Shown piece by piece: positions 1,602 through 27,308 of a stretch of DNA of 33,614 nt (the first letter of the stretch is position 1; every line of letters starts with the position of its first letter). Origin of the DNA: Alphaproteobacteria bacterium (GTDB taxonomy: Bacteria; Pseudomonadota; Alphaproteobacteria; UBA6615). The stretch covers positions 1 to 33,614 of the forward strand of contig QIGO01000159.1 of assembly GCA_003230015.1 (NCBI GenBank), given 5' to 3'. Position numbers and translations under genes: made by a program. Under the pieces are notes generated by a model. That model was not told the origin of the DNA, ran no database searches, and worked only from the letters and a program-made list of their open reading frames with translations.

Positions 1602-2218
1602 CCGGCAATATTGCCTACATCGCCGCCACCGCCCCGGTTATCCCGATCCTCACCATCGCCCGTGTCGAGGACGCCGTCCCCCTGGCCCGTGCTCTTATTG
1701 CCGGCGGCCTGCCTGTTCTCGAAATTACCCTGCGCACCCCGGCCGCCCTCGGTGCCATCGCCGAGATCGCCGCCCAATTGCCCGCTGCCCTGATCGGCGC
1801 CGGCACTCTCACCCGCCCCGACCAGTTCGCCCAGGCCCGCCAGGCCGGCGCCCAATTCGCCGTCAGTCCCGGTTTCGATCCCCAGCTCAGCGCCGCCGCT
1901 TCCGACGCTGGCATGCCCTATCTTCCCGGCGTCGCCACCGCCTCGGAAATCATGCAGGCCACCCGTCACGGCCACGAAATACAAAAATTCTTTCCCGCCG
2001 AATCCAGCGGCGGCTGTGCCGCCTTGCGCGCTTTCGCCGGGCCATTCTCTAACATCCGCTTCTGCCCCACCGGCGGCATCGGCGGCGAGAATTTCGCCGA
2101 CTATCTCGCCTTGCCCAACGTCGTCTGTGTCGGCGGCTCTTGGGTCGCCCCCGCCGCCGCCATCGCCGCCGGTGACTGGCAACAGATCGAGGCCCTTGCC
2201 CGCGCCGCGGCGGGTTAG
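1598..2218 (+). CDS. eda: 2-dehydro-3-deoxy-phosphogluconate aldolase (KDPG aldolase)
   Basis: 206 aa; PVIPILTIARVEDAVPLARALIAGGLPVLEITLRTPAAL, IGAGTL, FFPAESSGG, FCPTGGIG; follows kdgK. Confidence 0.92.
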   Translation: MTGNIAYIAATAPVIPILTIARVEDAVPLARALIAGGLPVLEITLRTPAALGAIAEIAAQLPAALIGAGTLTRPDQFAQARQAGAQFAVSPGFDPQLSAAASDAGMPYLPGVATASEIMQATRHGHEIQKFFPAESSGGCAALRAFAGPFSNIRFCPTGGIGGENFADYLALPNVVCVGGSWVAPAAAIAAGDWQQIEALARAAAG

Positions 2219-2889
2219 TTGTCTAAGCCACAGCCGCGCAGCACCAGGATCGTCAACTGCTCGGCGGCGCGCTCGTAATCTTTCTCACTCAACGCGTCGA
2301 CCCCCAGCACCGCACCCACTTGCACACTGAAATCCGCATAAGTCTGCGTCGCCGCCCACAGGGTAAACATCAAATGATGGGCATCCACATCGGCGGCGAT
2401 TTTTCCTTGCGCCGCCCAGCGCGCGAACACCGTGGCGATGGCATCCACCCGCGCCTTCAGCTTGCTGCCCAGGAAGCGCCCCAGATAGGGCGCGCCATGC
2501 AGCATTTCATTGGCGAACACCCGCGACTCGATGGGGTAGCTGCGCGCCAGGGCCACCTTTGCCTGGATATATAGACGCAGCGCCACCGCCGGATCCGCCT
2601 CGGTTGTGAACAGGTCCATCTGCTCGATCCAGATGTCGAGCACATCGGCCAGCACCTTTTGATAGAGCAGCTCTTTTGTCCGGAAATAATAATGTATGTT
2701 CGCTTTTGGCAGCCCTGCCCGCTCAGCGATCGCCGCCGTGGTCGCGGCATCGAAACCGGCTTCGGAGAACACCGCCGCCGCCGCCGCCAGAATTCTCTGC
2801 TCCATTACCGCACGGCTGCGCGCCCGCGCACTTTTTTGGCTGACCGCGCTATCTGCTGCTGGTATTTCCGTTGCTTCACCGATCCGCAT
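2215..2889 (-). CDS. rutR: TetR-family regulator, RutR-like
   Basis: 224 aa; HTH ILAAAAAVFSEAGFDAATTAAIAERAGLPKANIHYYFRTKELLYQKVL; C-terminal SRVFANEMLHGAPYL resembles the YcdC/RutR C-domain; adjacent to pyrimidine catabolism genes and a RutR-type palindrome. Confidence 0.75.
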   Translation of the reverse strand: MRIGEATEIPAADSAVSQKSARARSRAVMEQRILAAAAAVFSEAGFDAATTAAIAERAGLPKANIHYYFRTKELLYQKVLADVLDIWIEQMDLFTTEADPAVALRLYIQAKVALARSYPIESRVFANEMLHGAPYLGRFLGSKLKARVDAIATVFARWAAQGKIAADVDAHHLMFTLWAATQTYADFSVQVGAVLGVDALSEKDYERAAEQLTILVLRGCGLDN

Positions 2890-2904: not shown

Positions 2905-4257
2905 TCAGGGCAGAGCCTTCAACACATCCGCGAGCAGGCCGAACATCTCATCGATTTGACTCTTCTCGATGATCAAGGGCGGCGACAGGGCGATGATATC
3001 GCCTGTGGTCCGGATCAACAGTCCTTTGTCGTAACAACGCAAAAAGGCCTCGAACGCCCGCGCTGTCGGTTTGCCGCTTATGGACTCCAATTCGATGCCC
3101 GCGATCAGCCCGATATTGCGCAGATCGATCACATGGGGCAGACCTTTGAGAGCATGCACCGCGTCCTCCCAATAGGGCGCCATCTCCGCCGCCCGCCCGA
3201 ACAGGTCATCCTCGGCGTAGGTGTCGAGCGCGGCCAACGCCGCCGCCGCCGCCAGCGGATGCCCGGAATAGGTGTAGCCATGGAACAGCTCGATGGCCCC
3301 TTCCGGTCCCTGCATGAAGGCGTCATGGATCTCATCGCGCACGATCACCGCGCCCATGGGCACCACGCCGCTGGTCAATCCCTTGGCACAGGTGATCATG
3401 TCCGGCGTGACGCCGAAGCGTTCGGCCCCGAAACTCGATCCCAGGCGGCCAAAGCCGGTGATCACCTCGTCGAAGATCAACAGAATGCCGTGGCGGTCGC
3501 AGATTTCCCGCAAGCGCTCCAGATAACCCTTTGGCGGCAGCAGCACCCCGGTTGATCCGGCCACCGGCTCGACAATCACCGCGGCAATCGTCGAGGCGTC
3601 ATGCAGCGCCACCAGCCGCTCCAATTCATCGGCAAAATGCGCGCCCCAGGCCGGTTGTCCCCGGCTGTAGGCGTTATGCTCAAGATCATGGGTATGGGGC
3701 AGATGGTCGACACCATTGATCAGCGGCCCGAAAAAGCGTCGGTTGGAGACGATGCCGCCCACCGAAATACCGCCAAATCCGACCCCGTGATAACCCCGTT
3801 CCCGCCCGATTAGCCTTGTCCGCGAGGCCTGGCCGCGCACATTCTGATAAGCGATGGCGATCTTCAGCGCCGAATCCACCGCTTCGGACCCGGAATTGGT
3901 GAAGAACACATGGTTCATGCCCTCCGGCGCCAGCGCCGCGATGCGGCTCGCCAGGGCAAAGACTTTCGGATGCCCCATCTGAAAGGCCGGCGCATAGTCC
4001 AGTTCGCGTACCTGATTCTGCACCGCCTCGACGATCTTCTCCCGCCCGTGCCCGGCATTGACGCACCACAGCCCGGCGGTGCCGTCGAGAATCCGGCGGC
4101 CGTCATGGCTGGTGTAATGCATGCCCTTGGCGCTCACCAACATGCGCGGCTTTTGCTTGAACTGCCGGTTCGCCGTGAACGGCATCCAGAACGCCGCCAG
4201 GTCGTTCGGATTGTCGTATGACGCGCCGGTCTCGGCCACAGGATCGTGCAACGACAT
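2905..4257 (-). CDS. Class III PLP aminotransferase, omega-amino acid (beta-alanine):pyruvate transaminase type
   Basis: Start MSLHDP at 4257; NDLAAFWMPFTANRQFKQKPRMLVSAKGMHYTSHDGRRILDGTAGLWCVNAGHGR; FDEVITGFGRLG; CAKGLTSGVVPMGAV (PLP Lys). Confidence 0.88.
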   Translation of the reverse strand: MSLHDPVAETGASYDNPNDLAAFWMPFTANRQFKQKPRMLVSAKGMHYTSHDGRRILDGTAGLWCVNAGHGREKIVEAVQNQVRELDYAPAFQMGHPKVFALASRIAALAPEGMNHVFFTNSGSEAVDSALKIAIAYQNVRGQASRTRLIGRERGYHGVGFGGISVGGIVSNRRFFGPLINGVDHLPHTHDLEHNAYSRGQPAWGAHFADELERLVALHDASTIAAVIVEPVAGSTGVLLPPKGYLERLREICDRHGILLIFDEVITGFGRLGSSFGAERFGVTPDMITCAKGLTSGVVPMGAVIVRDEIHDAFMQGPEGAIELFHGYTYSGHPLAAAAALAALDTYAEDDLFGRAAEMAPYWEDAVHALKGLPHVIDLRNIGLIAGIELESISGKPTARAFEAFLRCYDKGLLIRTTGDIIALSPPLIIEKSQIDEMFGLLADVLKALP

Positions 4258-4368
4258 TTCCCCTCCCAAATTCTGATCTCTCTCGCCGGCTTGCGTAACG
4301 TATGACCGCCCCGGACAAAGCCCCGGCACGCTAACACGCCCAGCCCGACCGGCACAGAGGACCAAATC

Positions 4369-4384
4369 TTGACCAGTTGGTCAA
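4369..4384. promoter_or_regulatory. RutR-type operator palindrome TTGACCA-GT-TGGTCAA
   Basis: Exact match to the RutR box TTGACCAnnTGGTCAA (recalled from E. coli work); palindrome extends one more base each side (C...G); lies between divergent aminotransferase and preT. Confidence 0.85.
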
Positions 4385-4446
4385 GGTTCCCTAGAGTCGA
4401 AATACCGCGCCATCGCCAGCGCGGCCAGTCAACGGGAGGGGCACGC

Positions 4447-5844
4447 GTGACCCAGCAGACAGACCCCACGGACAACGGGCCCAATCCCACGCAGACCGCG
4501 CCTGATATCACCGCCGGCCGGCTCGGCACCGCCGACTACGCGGCCAATTTCGACGATGCCAAACCGCCCCTCGGCCACCGCCGCGCCCTTGTCGAGGCCG
4601 CCCGCTGTCATTTTTGTTACGACGCCCCCTGTATCGAGGCCTGCCCGACCGCCATCGATATCCCCGCTTTCATCGCCAAGATCGCTTCGGACAATCTCAA
4701 AGGCTCGGCCCTGGAGATCCTCAACGCCAACATCTTCGGCGGCATGTGCGCCCGTGTTTGTCCCACCGAGATTCTTTGCGAACAGGCGTGCGTACGCACC
4801 GCCCAGGACGGCAAGCCGGTCAAGATCGGCTTGCTGCAGCGCCATGCCACCGACTGGCTTTTTGATGCCGGTATCAGGCCCTTTGAACGCGCCCCGGCCA
4901 GCGGCAAGACCGTCGCCATCGTCGGCGCCGGCCCCGCCGGCCTCTCTTGCGCCCACCGCCTCGCCATGCTCGGCCATAATGTCGTGGTTTACGAGGCCCG
5001 GGAGAAAAGCGGCGGCCTCAACGAATATGGCATTGCTGCCTATAAAGTACCGGACGGCTTCGCCCAGCGCGAACTGGATTTTATCCTGTCCATCGGCGGC
5101 ATCGAGATCCGCCACAACCAGCGCCTCGGGCACGACGTCACTTTGACCAAGTTACGCCACCAATATGACGCCGTCTTCCTCGGTATCGGCCTTGCCGGCG
5201 GGCGCGGTTTGGACACCCAAGGCAATGGTCTTGGTGGCGTGCACGCCGCCGTCGACTACATCGCCGAACTGCGCCAGAGCAAGGACCTGGCAAAGCTGCC
5301 CGTCGGCCGCAACGTCGTTGTCATCGGCGGCGGCAACACCGCCATCGACATCGCCATCCAGTCCAAACGCCTCGGCGCCGAAATCGTCACTCTCGTCTAT
5401 CGCCGCGGTGCCGAACAAATGAGTGCCACCGGCCACGAGCAGGAATTTGCCCAGGTCAACGGCGTCACCATCATCCACTGGGCCCAACCGGCCGCGATTG
5501 CCGGCAAGGACGGTCATGTTCGCAGCATTTCCTTCGAGCGCACCACGCTTACGCCCGATGGCCGGCTCGACGGCACCGGCGAGCATTTCGCCCTGCCCGT
5601 CGATGTCGTTTTTACTGCCATCGGGCAACTATTCATGACCGAGCCCATCGCCGCCGACGACGCCGCCAGTTCCCTGGTCATTCGCGACGGCGCCATCGCT
5701 GTCGACGACGAGCGCCAAACATCCCTGCCCGATGTTTTCGCCGGCGGCGATTGCATCTCGGGTGTCGACCTCACCGTGCAGGCTGTCGAGGACGGTAAGC
5801 AGGCCGCCATCGCCATCGACCGCCGCCTGCGCGGCCAAGTTTAG
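4447..5844 (+). CDS. preT: NAD(P)-dependent dihydropyrimidine dehydrogenase subunit A (PreT/PydA-like; glutamate synthase small-chain-like FAD/Fe-S protein)
   Basis: GTG start 4447 after GGGAGGGG; Cys motifs CHFCYDAPCIEACPTAIDIP and CARVCPTEILCEQAC; VAIVGAGPAGLSCAHRLAMLGH; VVVIGGGNTAIDIA. Confidence 0.92.
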   Translation: MTQQTDPTDNGPNPTQTAPDITAGRLGTADYAANFDDAKPPLGHRRALVEAARCHFCYDAPCIEACPTAIDIPAFIAKIASDNLKGSALEILNANIFGGMCARVCPTEILCEQACVRTAQDGKPVKIGLLQRHATDWLFDAGIRPFERAPASGKTVAIVGAGPAGLSCAHRLAMLGHNVVVYEAREKSGGLNEYGIAAYKVPDGFAQRELDFILSIGGIEIRHNQRLGHDVTLTKLRHQYDAVFLGIGLAGGRGLDTQGNGLGGVHAAVDYIAELRQSKDLAKLPVGRNVVVIGGGNTAIDIAIQSKRLGAEIVTLVYRRGAEQMSATGHEQEFAQVNGVTIIHWAQPAAIAGKDGHVRSISFERTTLTPDGRLDGTGEHFALPVDVVFTAIGQLFMTEPIAADDAASSLVIRDGAIAVDDERQTSLPDVFAGGDCISGVDLTVQAVEDGKQAAIAIDRRLRGQV

Positions 5845-5854
5845 GGAGCGCATT

Positions 5855-7126
5855 ATGGCCGACCTCAGTTGCAAAATCGGCGGCGTCAGCGCGCCAAACC
5901 CGTTCTGGCTTGCCTCCGCCCCGCCCACCGACAAGGAATACAACGTCCACCGCGCTTTCCGGGCCGGTTGGGGTGGCGTGGTTTGGAAAACCCTTGGCGA
6001 AGATCCGCCGGTCGTCAACGTCACCTCCCGTTATGGCGCCGTCCACCACCAGGGCCAGCGCCTCGCCGGTTTCAACAATATTGAGCTGATCACCGACCGC
6101 CCCCTCGACATCAATCTGCGTGAGATCAAGCAGGTCAAACGCGACTGGCCCGACCGGGCCATGATCGTGTCGTTGATGGTGCCTTGTGAAGAAGAGCCCT
6201 GGCGCCGGATTCTGGCCGCGGTAGAAGATACCAATGCCGATGGCGTCGAGCTCAATTTCGGCTGCCCCCACGGCATGTCCGAACGCGGCATGGGATCGGC
6301 CGTCGGCCAGGTACCGGAATATATCGAGATGGTCACCCGCTGGTGCAAATCCCACACGAATATGCCGGTTTTCGTCAAGCTCACCCCCAATGTGACCAAC
6401 ATTCTCGGCCCCGCCCACGCCGCCGTCACCGGCGGTGCCGACGCCGTCTCGCTCATCAACACCATCAACTCCATCACCAACGTCAATCTCGACGCCATGG
6501 CCCCCGAACCCATGGTCAATGGCAAGGGTGCCCATGGCGGTTATTGCGGCCCGGCCGTCAAACCCATTGCCTTGGCCATGGTCGCCGAAATCGCCCGCGA
6601 CGCCGAATGCCGAAATATCCCCATTTCCGGCATCGGCGGCATCTCCAACTGGCGCGACGCCGCCGAATTCATCGCCCTGGGCGCCGGTTCGGTACAAATT
6701 TGCACCGCCGCCATGCATTATGGCTTCCGCATCGTCGACGACATGATCGAGGGTTTGTCCAATTGGATGGACAGCAAGGGTTACCGCACCCTCGCCGATT
6801 TTCGCGGCGCCGCCAGCCGCAATTATGTCGATTGGGGCGCCCTCGACATCAACTACGAGCTTATCGCCAGCATCGACCAACAAGCCTGCATCAAATGCGG
6901 CCTTTGCCATATCGCCTGCGAAGACACGTCCCACCAGGCCATTGCCGCCACCCGCAGTAACGGCGACCGGCGCTACGAGGTCATCGACGAAGAATGTGTC
7001 GGCTGCAATCTATGCATGCATGTCTGCCCGGTTGACGGCTGCATCACCATGCAGCCGGTTGACAATGGCAAGCCCTATACGGTTTGGGGCGACGACCCGC
7101 GCAACCCGGCCAACATGCAAGACTGA
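5855..7126 (+). CDS. preA: NAD(P)-dependent dihydropyrimidine dehydrogenase subunit B (PreA)
   Basis: ATG at 5855; NPFWLASAPPTDKEYNVHRAFRAGWGGVVWKTLG; two C-terminal [4Fe-4S] motifs CIKCGLCHIAC and CVGCNLCMHVCP. Confidence 0.95.
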   Translation: MADLSCKIGGVSAPNPFWLASAPPTDKEYNVHRAFRAGWGGVVWKTLGEDPPVVNVTSRYGAVHHQGQRLAGFNNIELITDRPLDINLREIKQVKRDWPDRAMIVSLMVPCEEEPWRRILAAVEDTNADGVELNFGCPHGMSERGMGSAVGQVPEYIEMVTRWCKSHTNMPVFVKLTPNVTNILGPAHAAVTGGADAVSLINTINSITNVNLDAMAPEPMVNGKGAHGGYCGPAVKPIALAMVAEIARDAECRNIPISGIGGISNWRDAAEFIALGAGSVQICTAAMHYGFRIVDDMIEGLSNWMDSKGYRTLADFRGAASRNYVDWGALDINYELIASIDQQACIKCGLCHIACEDTSHQAIAATRSNGDRRYEVIDEECVGCNLCMHVCPVDGCITMQPVDNGKPYTVWGDDPRNPANMQD

Positions 7127-7155: not shown

Positions 7156-8028
7156 ATGGCGACGTTCAAGGCTGGCTTGATTCAACTCGGCCTCAAGGCC
7201 GATACCGATCTCAGCCCCGAGAAGATCCGCGATGTAATGACCCAGGCCCATATCCCCTACATCGAGCAGGCCGGCACCGCCGGCGTCCAGGTGCTGTGTT
7301 TCCAGGAAGTTTTCAACCAGCCCTATTTCTGCCCCAGCCAGGACGTCAAATGGTACGCCGCCGCCGAGGCCATTCCCGACGGACCCACCGTCCGGCTGAT
7401 GCAGGAATACGCCAGGAAATACAATATGGTCATCGTCGTCCCCATCTATGAGCAGCAGATGACCGGCGTTTATTACAACACCGCGGCGGTCATCGACGCC
7501 GACGGCAAGTATTTGGGCAAATACCGCAAGACCCATATTCCCCAGGTTGCCGGTTTTTATGAGAAATTCTTCTTCAAACCCGGCCAGAGCGGCTGGCCGG
7601 TCTTCGACACCGCTTATTGCAAACTGGGTGTCTATATATGTTACGACCGCCATTTCCCCGAAGGTTGGCGGGCCCTGGCCCTCAACGGTGCTGAATATAT
7701 CGTCAACCCCTCCGCCACCGTCGCCGGTCTCAGCCAATATCTATGGAAGCTCGAGCAGCCGGCCTCGGCCGTCGCCAATGGCGTTTTCATTGGCGCCATC
7801 AACCGCCCCGGCACCGAGGGCCCGTGGAATATCGGCCGCTTCTATGGCTCCAGTTATGTCGTCGATCCCCGCGGCGAATTCCTCTGTGAGGCGAGCGAGG
7901 ACAAGGATGAGCTGGTCACCGCGCAAATCGATCTCGATAAGGTGCGCGAAGTCCGCGATCTCTGGCAGTTCTTCCGCGACCGCCGCCCCGAGACCTATGG
8001 CTCTCTAGCCGACATCTCTACCGCGTAA
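7156..8028 (+). CDS. Beta-ureidopropionase / nitrilase-superfamily carbamoyl amidohydrolase
   Basis: 290 aa; Glu-Lys-Cys triad contexts LCFQEVFNQPYFCP, GKYRKTHIPQ, VYICYDRHFPEGWRALALNGAEYIVNPSAT. Confidence 0.9.
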   Translation: MATFKAGLIQLGLKADTDLSPEKIRDVMTQAHIPYIEQAGTAGVQVLCFQEVFNQPYFCPSQDVKWYAAAEAIPDGPTVRLMQEYARKYNMVIVVPIYEQQMTGVYYNTAAVIDADGKYLGKYRKTHIPQVAGFYEKFFFKPGQSGWPVFDTAYCKLGVYICYDRHFPEGWRALALNGAEYIVNPSATVAGLSQYLWKLEQPASAVANGVFIGAINRPGTEGPWNIGRFYGSSYVVDPRGEFLCEASEDKDELVTAQIDLDKVREVRDLWQFFRDRRPETYGSLADISTA

Positions 8029-18269: not shown

Positions 18270-18653
18270 ATGTCGCGTCGATTGATCTCTTCCGGATCCC
18301 CTTTCGAAGCCATTGCCGGCTACTCCCGCGCCGTCGTCGAGGGCGACTGGGTCTTGGTATCGGGCACCACCGGTTTGGCCGCGGACGGCACCTACCCCAC
18401 CGATGTCGCCGCCCAGACCGAACGCGCCATTGAGATTATCCGCCAGGCCCTGGCAGAGGCCGGCGCCGGCCTCGCCGACGTCGTCCGTCTGCGCTGCTAT
18501 ATCGCCGAGCGGGACGATTTCATGACCGTAGCCAAGATCATCGGCCGCCACTTCGCCGAAATCCGCCCCGCCAATACCACCATCTGCGCCACCCTGGCCC
18601 TGCCGGAAATGAAAGTCGAGATCGAGGTCAGCGCCCACAAATCTTCCCCTTGA
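18270..18653 (+). CDS. Rid family (YjgF/YER057c/UK114) protein, non-canonical at the Arg105 position
   Basis: 127 aa; VLVSGTTGLAADGTYPTDVAAQTERAIEIIRQALAEAGAGLADVVRLRCYIAERDDF...PANTTICATLALPEMKVEIEVSA. Confidence 0.85.
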   Translation: MSRRLISSGSPFEAIAGYSRAVVEGDWVLVSGTTGLAADGTYPTDVAAQTERAIEIIRQALAEAGAGLADVVRLRCYIAERDDFMTVAKIIGRHFAEIRPANTTICATLALPEMKVEIEVSAHKSSP

Positions 18654-18691
18654 GACGATCCGGCCCGCGATTTCTTCCCGGCTCCCCCATT

Positions 18692-18711
18692 ATTTGCATT
18701 CTCATACAAAT
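18692..18711. promoter_or_regulatory. Operator-like 20-bp imperfect palindrome ATTTGCAT-TCTC-ATACAAAT
   Basis: Half-sites ATTTGCAT / ATTTGTAT (7/8 identical), 56 bp upstream of the monooxygenase start, at the head of a tightly packed operon. Confidence 0.45.
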
Positions 18712-18766
18712 CATAGGATGCTCGGCACGACTGCAAAAGAGCCAACCGCCCGGGGAGTAAACAACA

Positions 18767-19873
18767 ATGGCCGCGGTCGCACCGAACCCCTTATTCGGAG
18801 AAAACCCGTTCAAACTAGGTCTCTTTTCGGTCAATGCCGATGGCGGCCTCGCCCTCACCACCGTGCCCGAACGCTGGCGGGCCCGGTGGGACGATATTGT
18901 TCATATCAGCCGCCTCGCCGACGACGCCGGCATCGAGTTCATTCTGCCCATCGCCCGCTGGCAGGGTTTTGGCGGCCAGACCGATGCCCGCGGCAGCTCT
19001 TACGAGACCCTGACCCACGGTGCGGCCCTGGCCGCCCTGACCAAGCGCATCGCCATCTTCTCCACCGTCCACGCCCCGCTGGTCCACCCGGTATTCGCCG
19101 CCAAGGCCCTGGCCACCATCGACCATGTCAGCCATGGCCGTGCCGGGCTCAATATTGTCTGCGGCTGGAACCAGCCGGAGTTCGATATGTTCGGCACCGC
19201 CCAGGCCGATGACCGTTACGCCCAGGGTTATGAATGGTATCAGATCCTCACCCGCATATTCGCTGGCGGCGAGCCCTTCGACTTTACCGGCGAATATTAC
19301 GACCTCAAGGGCGTCGTCGGCGCCCCATCGACGATCCAGCAGCCGCGCCCCGTGACCATGTCGGCCGCATTTTCGCCCCCGGGCCGGGAGTTCGCCGTCA
19401 AGACCAGCGATTTCCTTTTCACCACCTTCGCCGAGATCGAGAGCGGCGCCGCCCATATCGCCGATATCCGCCGGCGCGGCCAGCAGGCCGGCCGTGACCT
19501 CGGCGTCTTCACCACCACCCATGTGGTCTGCCGCGAGAGTCAGCAGGAGGCCGAGGATTATTATCAGCGCTACGCCGTCGATCTGGCCGACCATGGCGCC
19601 GTCGACCGCCATATGGCCATGAAGAAGGAATTCGCCAACTCCCACGACCCCCATGTATTCGACCAATACCGCCAGCGTTTCGCCGGTGGCGTCGGCACCT
19701 ATCCCCTGGTTGGCACGCCACGGCATATCGTCGACGAAATGGTCAAGATGCACGCCATCGGCTTTGCCGGCACCACTTTGTCTTTCGTCAATTTTAGCGA
19801 CGAGTTGCCCTATTTCATTGACCGGGTACTGCCGCTCATGGCGAGCGCCGGCCTGCGTCGGCCGCGCCCATGA
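18767..19873 (+). CDS. LLM class flavin-dependent monooxygenase, RutA/SfnG/DmoA-like group
   Basis: 368 aa; FILPIARWQGFGGQTDARGSSYETLTHGAALAALTKRIAIFSTVHAPLVHPVFAAKALATIDHVSHGRAGLNIVCGWNQPEFDMFG compares with RutA RGFGGKTEFW...GWQKPEY. Confidence 0.85.
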   Translation: MAAVAPNPLFGENPFKLGLFSVNADGGLALTTVPERWRARWDDIVHISRLADDAGIEFILPIARWQGFGGQTDARGSSYETLTHGAALAALTKRIAIFSTVHAPLVHPVFAAKALATIDHVSHGRAGLNIVCGWNQPEFDMFGTAQADDRYAQGYEWYQILTRIFAGGEPFDFTGEYYDLKGVVGAPSTIQQPRPVTMSAAFSPPGREFAVKTSDFLFTTFAEIESGAAHIADIRRRGQQAGRDLGVFTTTHVVCRESQQEAEDYYQRYAVDLADHGAVDRHMAMKKEFANSHDPHVFDQYRQRFAGGVGTYPLVGTPRHIVDEMVKMHAIGFAGTTLSFVNFSDELPYFIDRVLPLMASAGLRRPRP

Positions 19874-25691: not shown

Positions 25692-27308
25692 TCATTGCGG
25701 TAGGTATTCCGCGAACTGTTTTTCCACTTCCGAGGCATCGGCGGCCAGCCCGGCCGCCACCCCTTGCGCCATATCGCCCACATAGACCACTTCCGAACCC
25801 GCCTGCACGGCGGCCAGCGCCGCCACGGCTACCTCTTTTGGGGCAAGCTTGGGTTGCGGCTGCTGGGCGCTCATCTCCGTATCCACCGCCCCCGGCATCA
25901 CCCCCACCACCAGCGTCCCCTGCCCGGCCAGCTGCGCCCGCACCCCTTGCGTCAAGCTCAAGGTCGCGGCCTTGGAGGCGCTATAGGACCCCAGGGCCGG
26001 CAGATTCACCCGTGACAGGATAGTCAGCATGTTAACCAAGGCGCCGCCGCCATTGCGCGCCAAGACCGGGGCAAACTCCCGGCACATGGCCAGGGTCCCA
26101 AAATAGTTGACTTCGATCTCCTGGCGCTGCTCGGCCATATCGCCGCCGATCAACGGCCTATTGGCGTTGACCCCGGCGTTATTGATCAGCAATGTCACGT
26201 CGCCGCACGCTTGTGCCGCCGCGGCCACCGCCCCGTGATCGGTAATATCCAGGGCCAAAATCTCGACCCGTTCGCCATCACCCGCGGCCAAATCCGCCAG
26301 GCCGTCCCGGTCGCGCGCGCTGGCATAGACCTTCGCCGCCCCACCATCCAGCAAGGCATGCACGAACGCCCGGCCGATGCCCCGGTTACAGCCGGTCACG
26401 AAAGCCACTGCTCCCTTGATATCCATCGTCTCTGCTCTCCCCTCTGCCGACCCGGCATCGCCATCTTGTGGCCCGTCGATCCAATCTGGATCGATCTCCG
26501 GCAACGGGATCGAGTCCAGCAGCGTCCGAGTATAGGGGTGGCTTGGGGCGGCGAACAGCGCCCCACAGGGGCCGCTTTCCACCACCGCGCCGTTATTCAT
26601 CACCATCACCCGGTCGCAGACCACCCGCACCACCGATAGATCATGGCTGATAAAGATCAGGGCAATTCCCAGATCCCGTTTAAGCTCGGCCAGCAGGTCG
26701 AGAATTTGCGCTTGTGTCGAGACGTCGAGGCCGGAAACGATCTCGTCCGCCACCACCAGGGCCGGTTTGATCCCGATCGCCCGGGCGATCCCCACCCGCT
26801 GCCGCTGGCCCCCGCTGAGCTCATGGGGATAGCGCCGCCCGTGGGCGCTGCTCAGCCCCACCCGCTCCAACAACCCGTCCGTTACCACCAGGGCCGCCCG
26901 CCGATCCACGGCCAGCCCGAAACTCAGCAATGGCCGCGCCACGATATCGGCCACCCGGCGGCGCGGATTGAGGGAGGATTGCGGATCCTGAAAGATCATC
27001 TGCATACGGGCCCGCAAGGGCCGCAGCGCCGGCTCACCCAAATGGGTGATGTCCGTGCCCTCGAACAGCAACTGCCCGCCCGAGGGTTCATAGAGCCGCA
27101 ACAGACAACGGCCCAGGCTGGTTTTGCCCGAGCCGGATTCCCCGACGATACCCAGCGATTCCCCCGCCGCCAACGTCAAGTCGATCCCCCGCAGGATCGG
27201 CCGCATGGGCGTCGACCTGAACAACCTCTTGGCGCCCCGGTCCGGCAGCGCCAAACTCAGCCCCCGCACGTCAAGCATAACGCGCCATGGCGCGCCGGTG
27301 CTGGTCAT
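25692..27308 (-). CDS. In-frame fusion ORF: Dpp/Opp-type ABC ATPase (DppF-like, about 26427-27308; probable start 27278) + SDR-family oxidoreductase (25692-26426)
   Basis: ATPase: GIVGESGSGKTSLGRCLLRLYEPSGG, LSGGQRQRVGIARAI, HPYTRTLLDSIPLPEIDPDWI. SDR: MDIKGAVAFVTGCNRGIGRAFVHALL (TGxxxGIG), LINNAG, YSASKAA. No stop between them. Confidence 0.85.
   Translation of the reverse strand: MTSTGAPWRVMLDVRGLSLALPDRGAKRLFRSTPMRPILRGIDLTLAAGESLGIVGESGSGKTSLGRCLLRLYEPSGGQLLFEGTDITHLGEPALRPLRARMQMIFQDPQSSLNPRRRVADIVARPLLSFGLAVDRRAALVVTDGLLERVGLSSAHGRRYPHELSGGQRQRVGIARAIGIKPALVVADEIVSGLDVSTQAQILDLLAELKRDLGIALIFISHDLSVVRVVCDRVMVMNNGAVVESGPCGALFAAPSHPYTRTLLDSIPLPEIDPDWIDGPQDGDAGSAEGRAETMDIKGAVAFVTGCNRGIGRAFVHALLDGGAAKVYASARDRDGLADLAAGDGERVEILALDITDHGAVAAAAQACGDVTLLINNAGVNANRPLIGGDMAEQRQEIEVNYFGTLAMCREFAPVLARNGGGALVNMLTILSRVNLPALGSYSASKAATLSLTQGVRAQLAGQGTLVVGVMPGAVDTEMSAQQPQPKLAPKEVAVAALAAVQAGSEVVYVGDMAQGVAAGLAADASEVEKQFAEYLPQ

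Follow-up and report, generated by a model that had tools for sequence, protein, structure and literature searches.

In Pseudomonas putida, the gene for dihydropyrimidine dehydrogenase is described as being under the control of a RutR-like repressor, PydR (Hidese et al. 2012, J. Biochem. 152:341, as cited in PMC7332683). According to the RegPrecise survey, RutR regulons for pyrimidine catabolism are predicted in 68 proteobacterial genomes from 13 taxa, and their motifs vary in a taxon-specific way (Leyn et al. 2016, PMC5343134). In the structure of RutR with uracil, the ligand is contacted by W77, Y97, W167, Q171, and Q179' (E. coli numbering), and K52 and K62 are DNA-binding lysines (PMC10891134). 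Here, we analyzed a stretch of 33,614 nucleotides from an alphaproteobacterial draft genome (the window), in which genes for the reductive (Pyd) breakdown of pyrimidines flank a RutR-type palindrome. The features of the locus are as follows.

2215..2889, minus strand: RutR-like TetR-family repressor, 224 aa (PDB RutR matches, TIGR03613, TetR_C_3, uracil contacts)
2905..4257, minus strand: aptA, omega-amino acid (beta-alanine) aminotransferase (NF052567 AptA, 767.8 bits, cut-off 500)
4369..4384, no strand assigned: predicted RutR-type operator TTGACCAGTTGGTCAA, palindrome 4368-4385 (0 mismatches, unique in the genome, kept in relatives)
4369..4397, plus strand: sigma-70-like preT promoter, -35 TTGACC (4369-4374), 17-bp spacer, -10 TAGAGT (4392-4397)
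4447..5844, plus strand: preT, NAD(P)H-oxidising subunit of dihydropyrimidine dehydrogenase, GTG start (GltD-like flavoprotein family, directly before preA)
5855..7126, plus strand: preA, dihydropyrimidine dehydrogenase catalytic subunit (NF006183, 706.8 bits, cut-off 335)
7156..8028, plus strand: nitrilase-type hydrolase, probable beta-ureidopropionase (PydC role; PDB matches)

The sequence at 4369-4384, TTGACCAGTTGGTCAA, is enclosed by an 18-bp perfect palindrome, CTTGACCAGTTGGTCAAG (4368-4385), and matches the RutR consensus TTGACCANNTGGTCAA with 0 mismatches, as the earlier note had claimed; that note was also correct in its distances, 112 bp to the start of aptA at 4257 on the minus strand and 63 bp to the GTG of preT at 4447. 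Across the whole window, the next-best place has 2 mismatches to the consensus. The genome-wide scan that the note had proposed, made on a draft of 3,066,266 bp in 244 contigs (75% complete), returned this site as the sole exact match, with ~0.01 exact sites per genome expected by chance from 14 fixed bases. Two one-mismatch sites occur elsewhere in the draft genome, neither beside Pyd genes. Ten stretches elsewhere with ≤2 mismatches were inspected in context and rejected as chance matches, because most lie inside long open reading frames and none is beside Pyd genes. We consider 4369-4384 a well-supported predicted operator of a RutR-type repressor on the preT promoter.

The first half-site of the operator doubles as the preT -35 hexamer. 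A consensus scan of 4200-4500 found a single promoter-like site, TTGACC-17-TAGAGT, which faces preT (shuffled sequences gave 0.0), and the element is identical, spacing and -10 included, in a relative of the same family (L145). Among 21 boxed promoters of relatives, 14 share one fixed distance to a TA dinucleotide, the beginning of a -10-like hexamer (18-bp spacer), versus 0 to 4 at other offsets. Because the half-site coincides with the -35 and the -10 lies at a fixed distance, repression by occlusion of the -35 is favored. The aptA side of the box has no good -10, so control of aptA and the regulator gene from this box is uncertain.

The earlier note had placed a RutR-like TetR gene 1.5 kb away. 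Its RutR-like character is upheld by PDB matches, residues, and phylogeny; the distance understates the linkage, since the gene lies 15 bp downstream of aptA on the same minus strand. Given that gap and shared direction, it is better described as the second gene of an aptA operon, and the two are probably cotranscribed. The best PDB matches of the product are E. coli RutR entries (E 3e-42), and Pfam TetR_C_3 is present. It scores 175.8 bits on TIGR03613 RutR (E 9.6e-52), far under the equivalog cut-off of 368, and we therefore call it RutR-like rather than RutR of the E. coli type; on PRK15008 it reaches 167.2 against a cut-off of 230. Its gene is not divergent to rutA-G, as in the TIGR03613 definition of RutR, its neighbors being aptA and preTA, and a search of the genome at E 1e-150 found no RutA. 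No other RutR-like gene occurs in this genome, in which the next-best TetR is 26% identical.

All five uracil contacts are conserved in the window protein as W87, Y107, W178, Q182, and Q190, and the helix-turn-helix lysines K52 and K62 of RutR correspond to K62 and K72. In the alignment, these contacts are absent from three unrelated TetRs of the same genome and are kept in every aligned regulator linked to Pyd (39/39), URC (3/3), or rut (3/3) genes; the two lysines are likewise kept in 39/39 Pyd-linked regulators. By its contact residues and the exact box in a pyrimidine catabolic promoter, that of preT, the window protein fits the broad RutR/PydR-like group of uracil-sensing TetRs. Phylogeny, which the earlier note had named as a possible refutation, places the regulator within the RutR group and apart from the three other TetRs.

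The arrangement is conserved. The order tetR-aptA, box, preT-preA, with the two units divergent, recurs in two relatives of the same family (loci L145 and L146; genomes G002 and G008), with a single box serving the pair in G002 and two boxes between the divergent genes in G008. More widely, preT is followed by preA in relatives, and the same element precedes preT in most of those with an adjacent RutR-like gene. Sufficient upstream sequence was available for 26 preT loci, and in 17 of them a box (≥12/14) lies within 400 bp upstream, compared with 3.3% of random control windows from the same loci. We also pooled 74 catabolic loci (preT, URC1, and RutA; mostly of the same class) at a box threshold of ≥11/14. 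A box was present at 22/22 loci with an adjacent RutR-like gene versus 5/52 without (Fisher p ~2e-14), p-values of this kind being optimistic because relatives are not independent; for some of these loci the flanks span just 1.5 kb, so that a distant regulator would escape the count. Four TetR-adjacent URC loci entered the pool via their regulator, which fixes adjacency and does not select for the box. The comparative evidence thus lends good support to the earlier suggestion that the box controls the reductive route, as a prediction from sequence.

The closest PDB matches of the 7156-8028 product are the CG3027-PA chain (2vhh) and the beta-ureidopropionases 8pt4 and 6ftq (E ~2e-57); because two of these are beta-ureidopropionases, a PydC role is probable. 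In one relative (L147), a protein 80% identical to it adjoins hydA and has a box of its own. The window contains no dihydropyrimidinase gene. A strong dihydropyrimidinase (590 bits, cut-off 393) is found on contig C9 of the same genome, where it stands last in a row, all on one strand, with genes of an NMT1-type ABC transporter (L143:4251-9722, G000 contig C9). Upstream of this row, 44 bp from its first start codon, is a degenerate box, TGACCAATCGGACA (C9:17706-17721); the stretch CTGACCAATCGGACAA has 3 mismatches in 14 to the E. coli consensus and 1 to TGACCAnnCGGTCA, the box form common in relatives. Places with ≤3 mismatches number 240 in the genome, or one per 12.8 kb, which gives a chance of ~2% of finding one within 200 bp of the start of the row. 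Betaproteobacterial relatives show a box, then a similar row of transporter genes, and then the regulator gene. The C9 box therefore probably brings the missing dihydropyrimidinase step, together with uptake, into the same predicted regulon. A second hydantoinase, on contig C118, has no box and is merely 41% identical to the reference.

Two other parts of the window deserve mention. At 18270-19873, a RidA-family gene and then a luciferase-like monooxygenase gene related to SfnG/RutA, both far under the cut-offs, precede a branched-chain-type ABC transporter. We considered this pair as a Rut-like oxidative route beside Pyd and rejected it on the scores (RutA, 129 versus 498 bits; RutC, 49 versus 169) and on the lack of RutA in the genome. 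At 25692-27308 (minus strand), an oligopeptide-type ABC ATPase and a short-chain dehydrogenase share one open frame, which is either an unusual fusion or the result of a lost stop codon or an assembly error.

We assign a probability of about 0.88 to the reading in which a local repressor of the RutR/PydR type, responsive to uracil, uses this site as its operator and controls preT-preA-pydC. In the scheme that we infer, a dimer of the 2215-2889 product would occupy TTGACCAGTTGGTCAA when uracil is lacking, masking the preT -35 and shutting off the three genes. Uracil (or thymine) would enter the pocket formed by W87, Y107, W178, Q182, and Q190 of the partner subunit and release the dimer, after which dihydropyrimidine dehydrogenase, dihydropyrimidinase, beta-ureidopropionase, and beta-alanine aminotransferase would act in turn. 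The divergent aptA-tetR unit is probably under the same box, in which case the repressor would be autoregulated, and the weaker C9 box TGACCAATCGGACA would probably add dihydropyrimidinase and uptake.

The box may govern preT-preA-pydC only, with aptA and the regulator gene transcribed from a separate, unregulated promoter; the sole intergenic promoter-like site faces preT, the box is nearer to preT than to aptA (63 versus 112 bp), and the G008 intergenic region has two boxes. We regard this restricted control as possible, although less probable than shared control: in G002 one box serves this divergent pair, and TetR-family repressors often act bidirectionally from one intergenic operator and regulate their own genes.

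Two further doubts concern the ligand and the site itself. In the wider family, regulators with identical pocket residues stand beside NCS2 permeases and non-Pyd genes, which means that the pocket may accept other nucleobases, and the regulator might sense thymine, dihydrouracil, beta-alanine, or a purine instead of uracil. The conservation of all five E. coli RutR uracil contacts and the linkage to genes for uracil and thymine breakdown make this unlikely. It is highly improbable that the palindrome arose by chance or belongs to another regulator: TTGACC is also a plain -35 hexamer, but the low number of exact sites expected per genome, the persistence of half-sites and spacing in relatives despite differing flanks, and the way in which box presence tracks an adjacent RutR-like gene all argue for a RutR-type operator.

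The regulator tree sets the locus in a wider context. The regulators of L145 and L146 cluster with the window protein (SH-aLRT 99). In the family tree of 102 rows, whose catabolically linked members are mostly Pyd-linked, the three rut-linked regulators fall together in a single clade (98). Long outgroups leave the root uncertain; what can safely be said from this tree is that rut-linked RutR appears as one small branch among Pyd-linked regulators. The idea that a rut box was transferred to Pyd genes is thus probably the wrong way round. While the operator, the RutR-like regulator, and the proposed Pyd control of the earlier note held up, its presentation of the site as a surprising carry-over from E. 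coli rut did not: Pyd-linked members predominate, the native box at rutA-rutR of E. coli matches the consensus poorly (11/14), and control of Pyd genes by a RutR-like repressor had already been published.

Within the class, the rut-linked locus L216 carries a 13/14 box. The box and a RutR-like gene also occur beside URC1-URC4-upp genes in beta- and alphaproteobacteria (L044:3014-6900, L059:200-4114, L164:4421-8489, and L166:4471-8498); in these four loci with an adjacent regulator, a 12-13/14 box stands before URC1. We take these genes to be the URC pathway from their RefSeq names and from what is known of this pathway in yeast. We rejected the idea that URC operons are linked to RutR in general, because, among URC1 operons of the class that lack a neighboring regulator, 22/23 have no box, and the association is confined to loci with an adjacent TetR gene. 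To judge by sequence comparison, the same RutR-like sensor and box precede the reductive Pyd, oxidative Rut, and URC routes. We lean toward the view that one module (a RutR-like TetR plus ctTGACCAnnyGGTCAag) has become attached to three or more uracil routes of unrelated chemistry, with essentially unchanged pocket and recognition residues, and that E. coli rut is derived and not the prototype.

In Marinobacterium, Oceanobacter, and relatives, RutR-like genes adjoin NCS2 nucleobase permeases (L109, L110, L113, L070, L071, and L088). Variants of the box lie upstream, and the regulators keep all, or almost all, uracil contacts; the ligand of these regulators could be uracil or a purine. Tandem pairs of RutR-like genes, each drawn from different branches of the regulator tree, lie beside Pyd genes at L087:8019-9226, L095:8070-9289, and L107:8049-9258.

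For this proteobacterial lineage, the analysis offers a confident regulatory annotation, that of a predicted uracil-breakdown switch with one repressor and one strong site, in which the operator doubles as the -35. Since the enzymes differ from route to route but box and regulator stay paired, uracil catabolism also stands as a clear example of a conserved sensor being reused for pathways that are not homologous, and the box is a practical marker for locating pyrimidine catabolic operons.

Compared with E. coli RutR, the window regulator shares the fold, the uracil-contact residues, the helix-turn-helix lysines, and a palindromic box of the same consensus, but it is distant in sequence and under the equivalog cut-off, and E. 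coli RutR governs the oxidative rut operon and carAB, whereas the genes here are reductive. PydR, by its description, is alike in being a RutR-like TetR regulator that acts on a reductive-route dihydropyrimidine dehydrogenase gene; the P. putida lineage differs from that of the window, and in two Pseudomonas genomes examined by locus we found weak PreA matches and no strong one. The RegPrecise RutR regulons resemble the locus in their predicted control of pyrimidine catabolism in proteobacteria. Because PydR and these regulons are already published, the locus adds one more well-supported example to a type of control that is conserved and largely known, and its novelty is modest.
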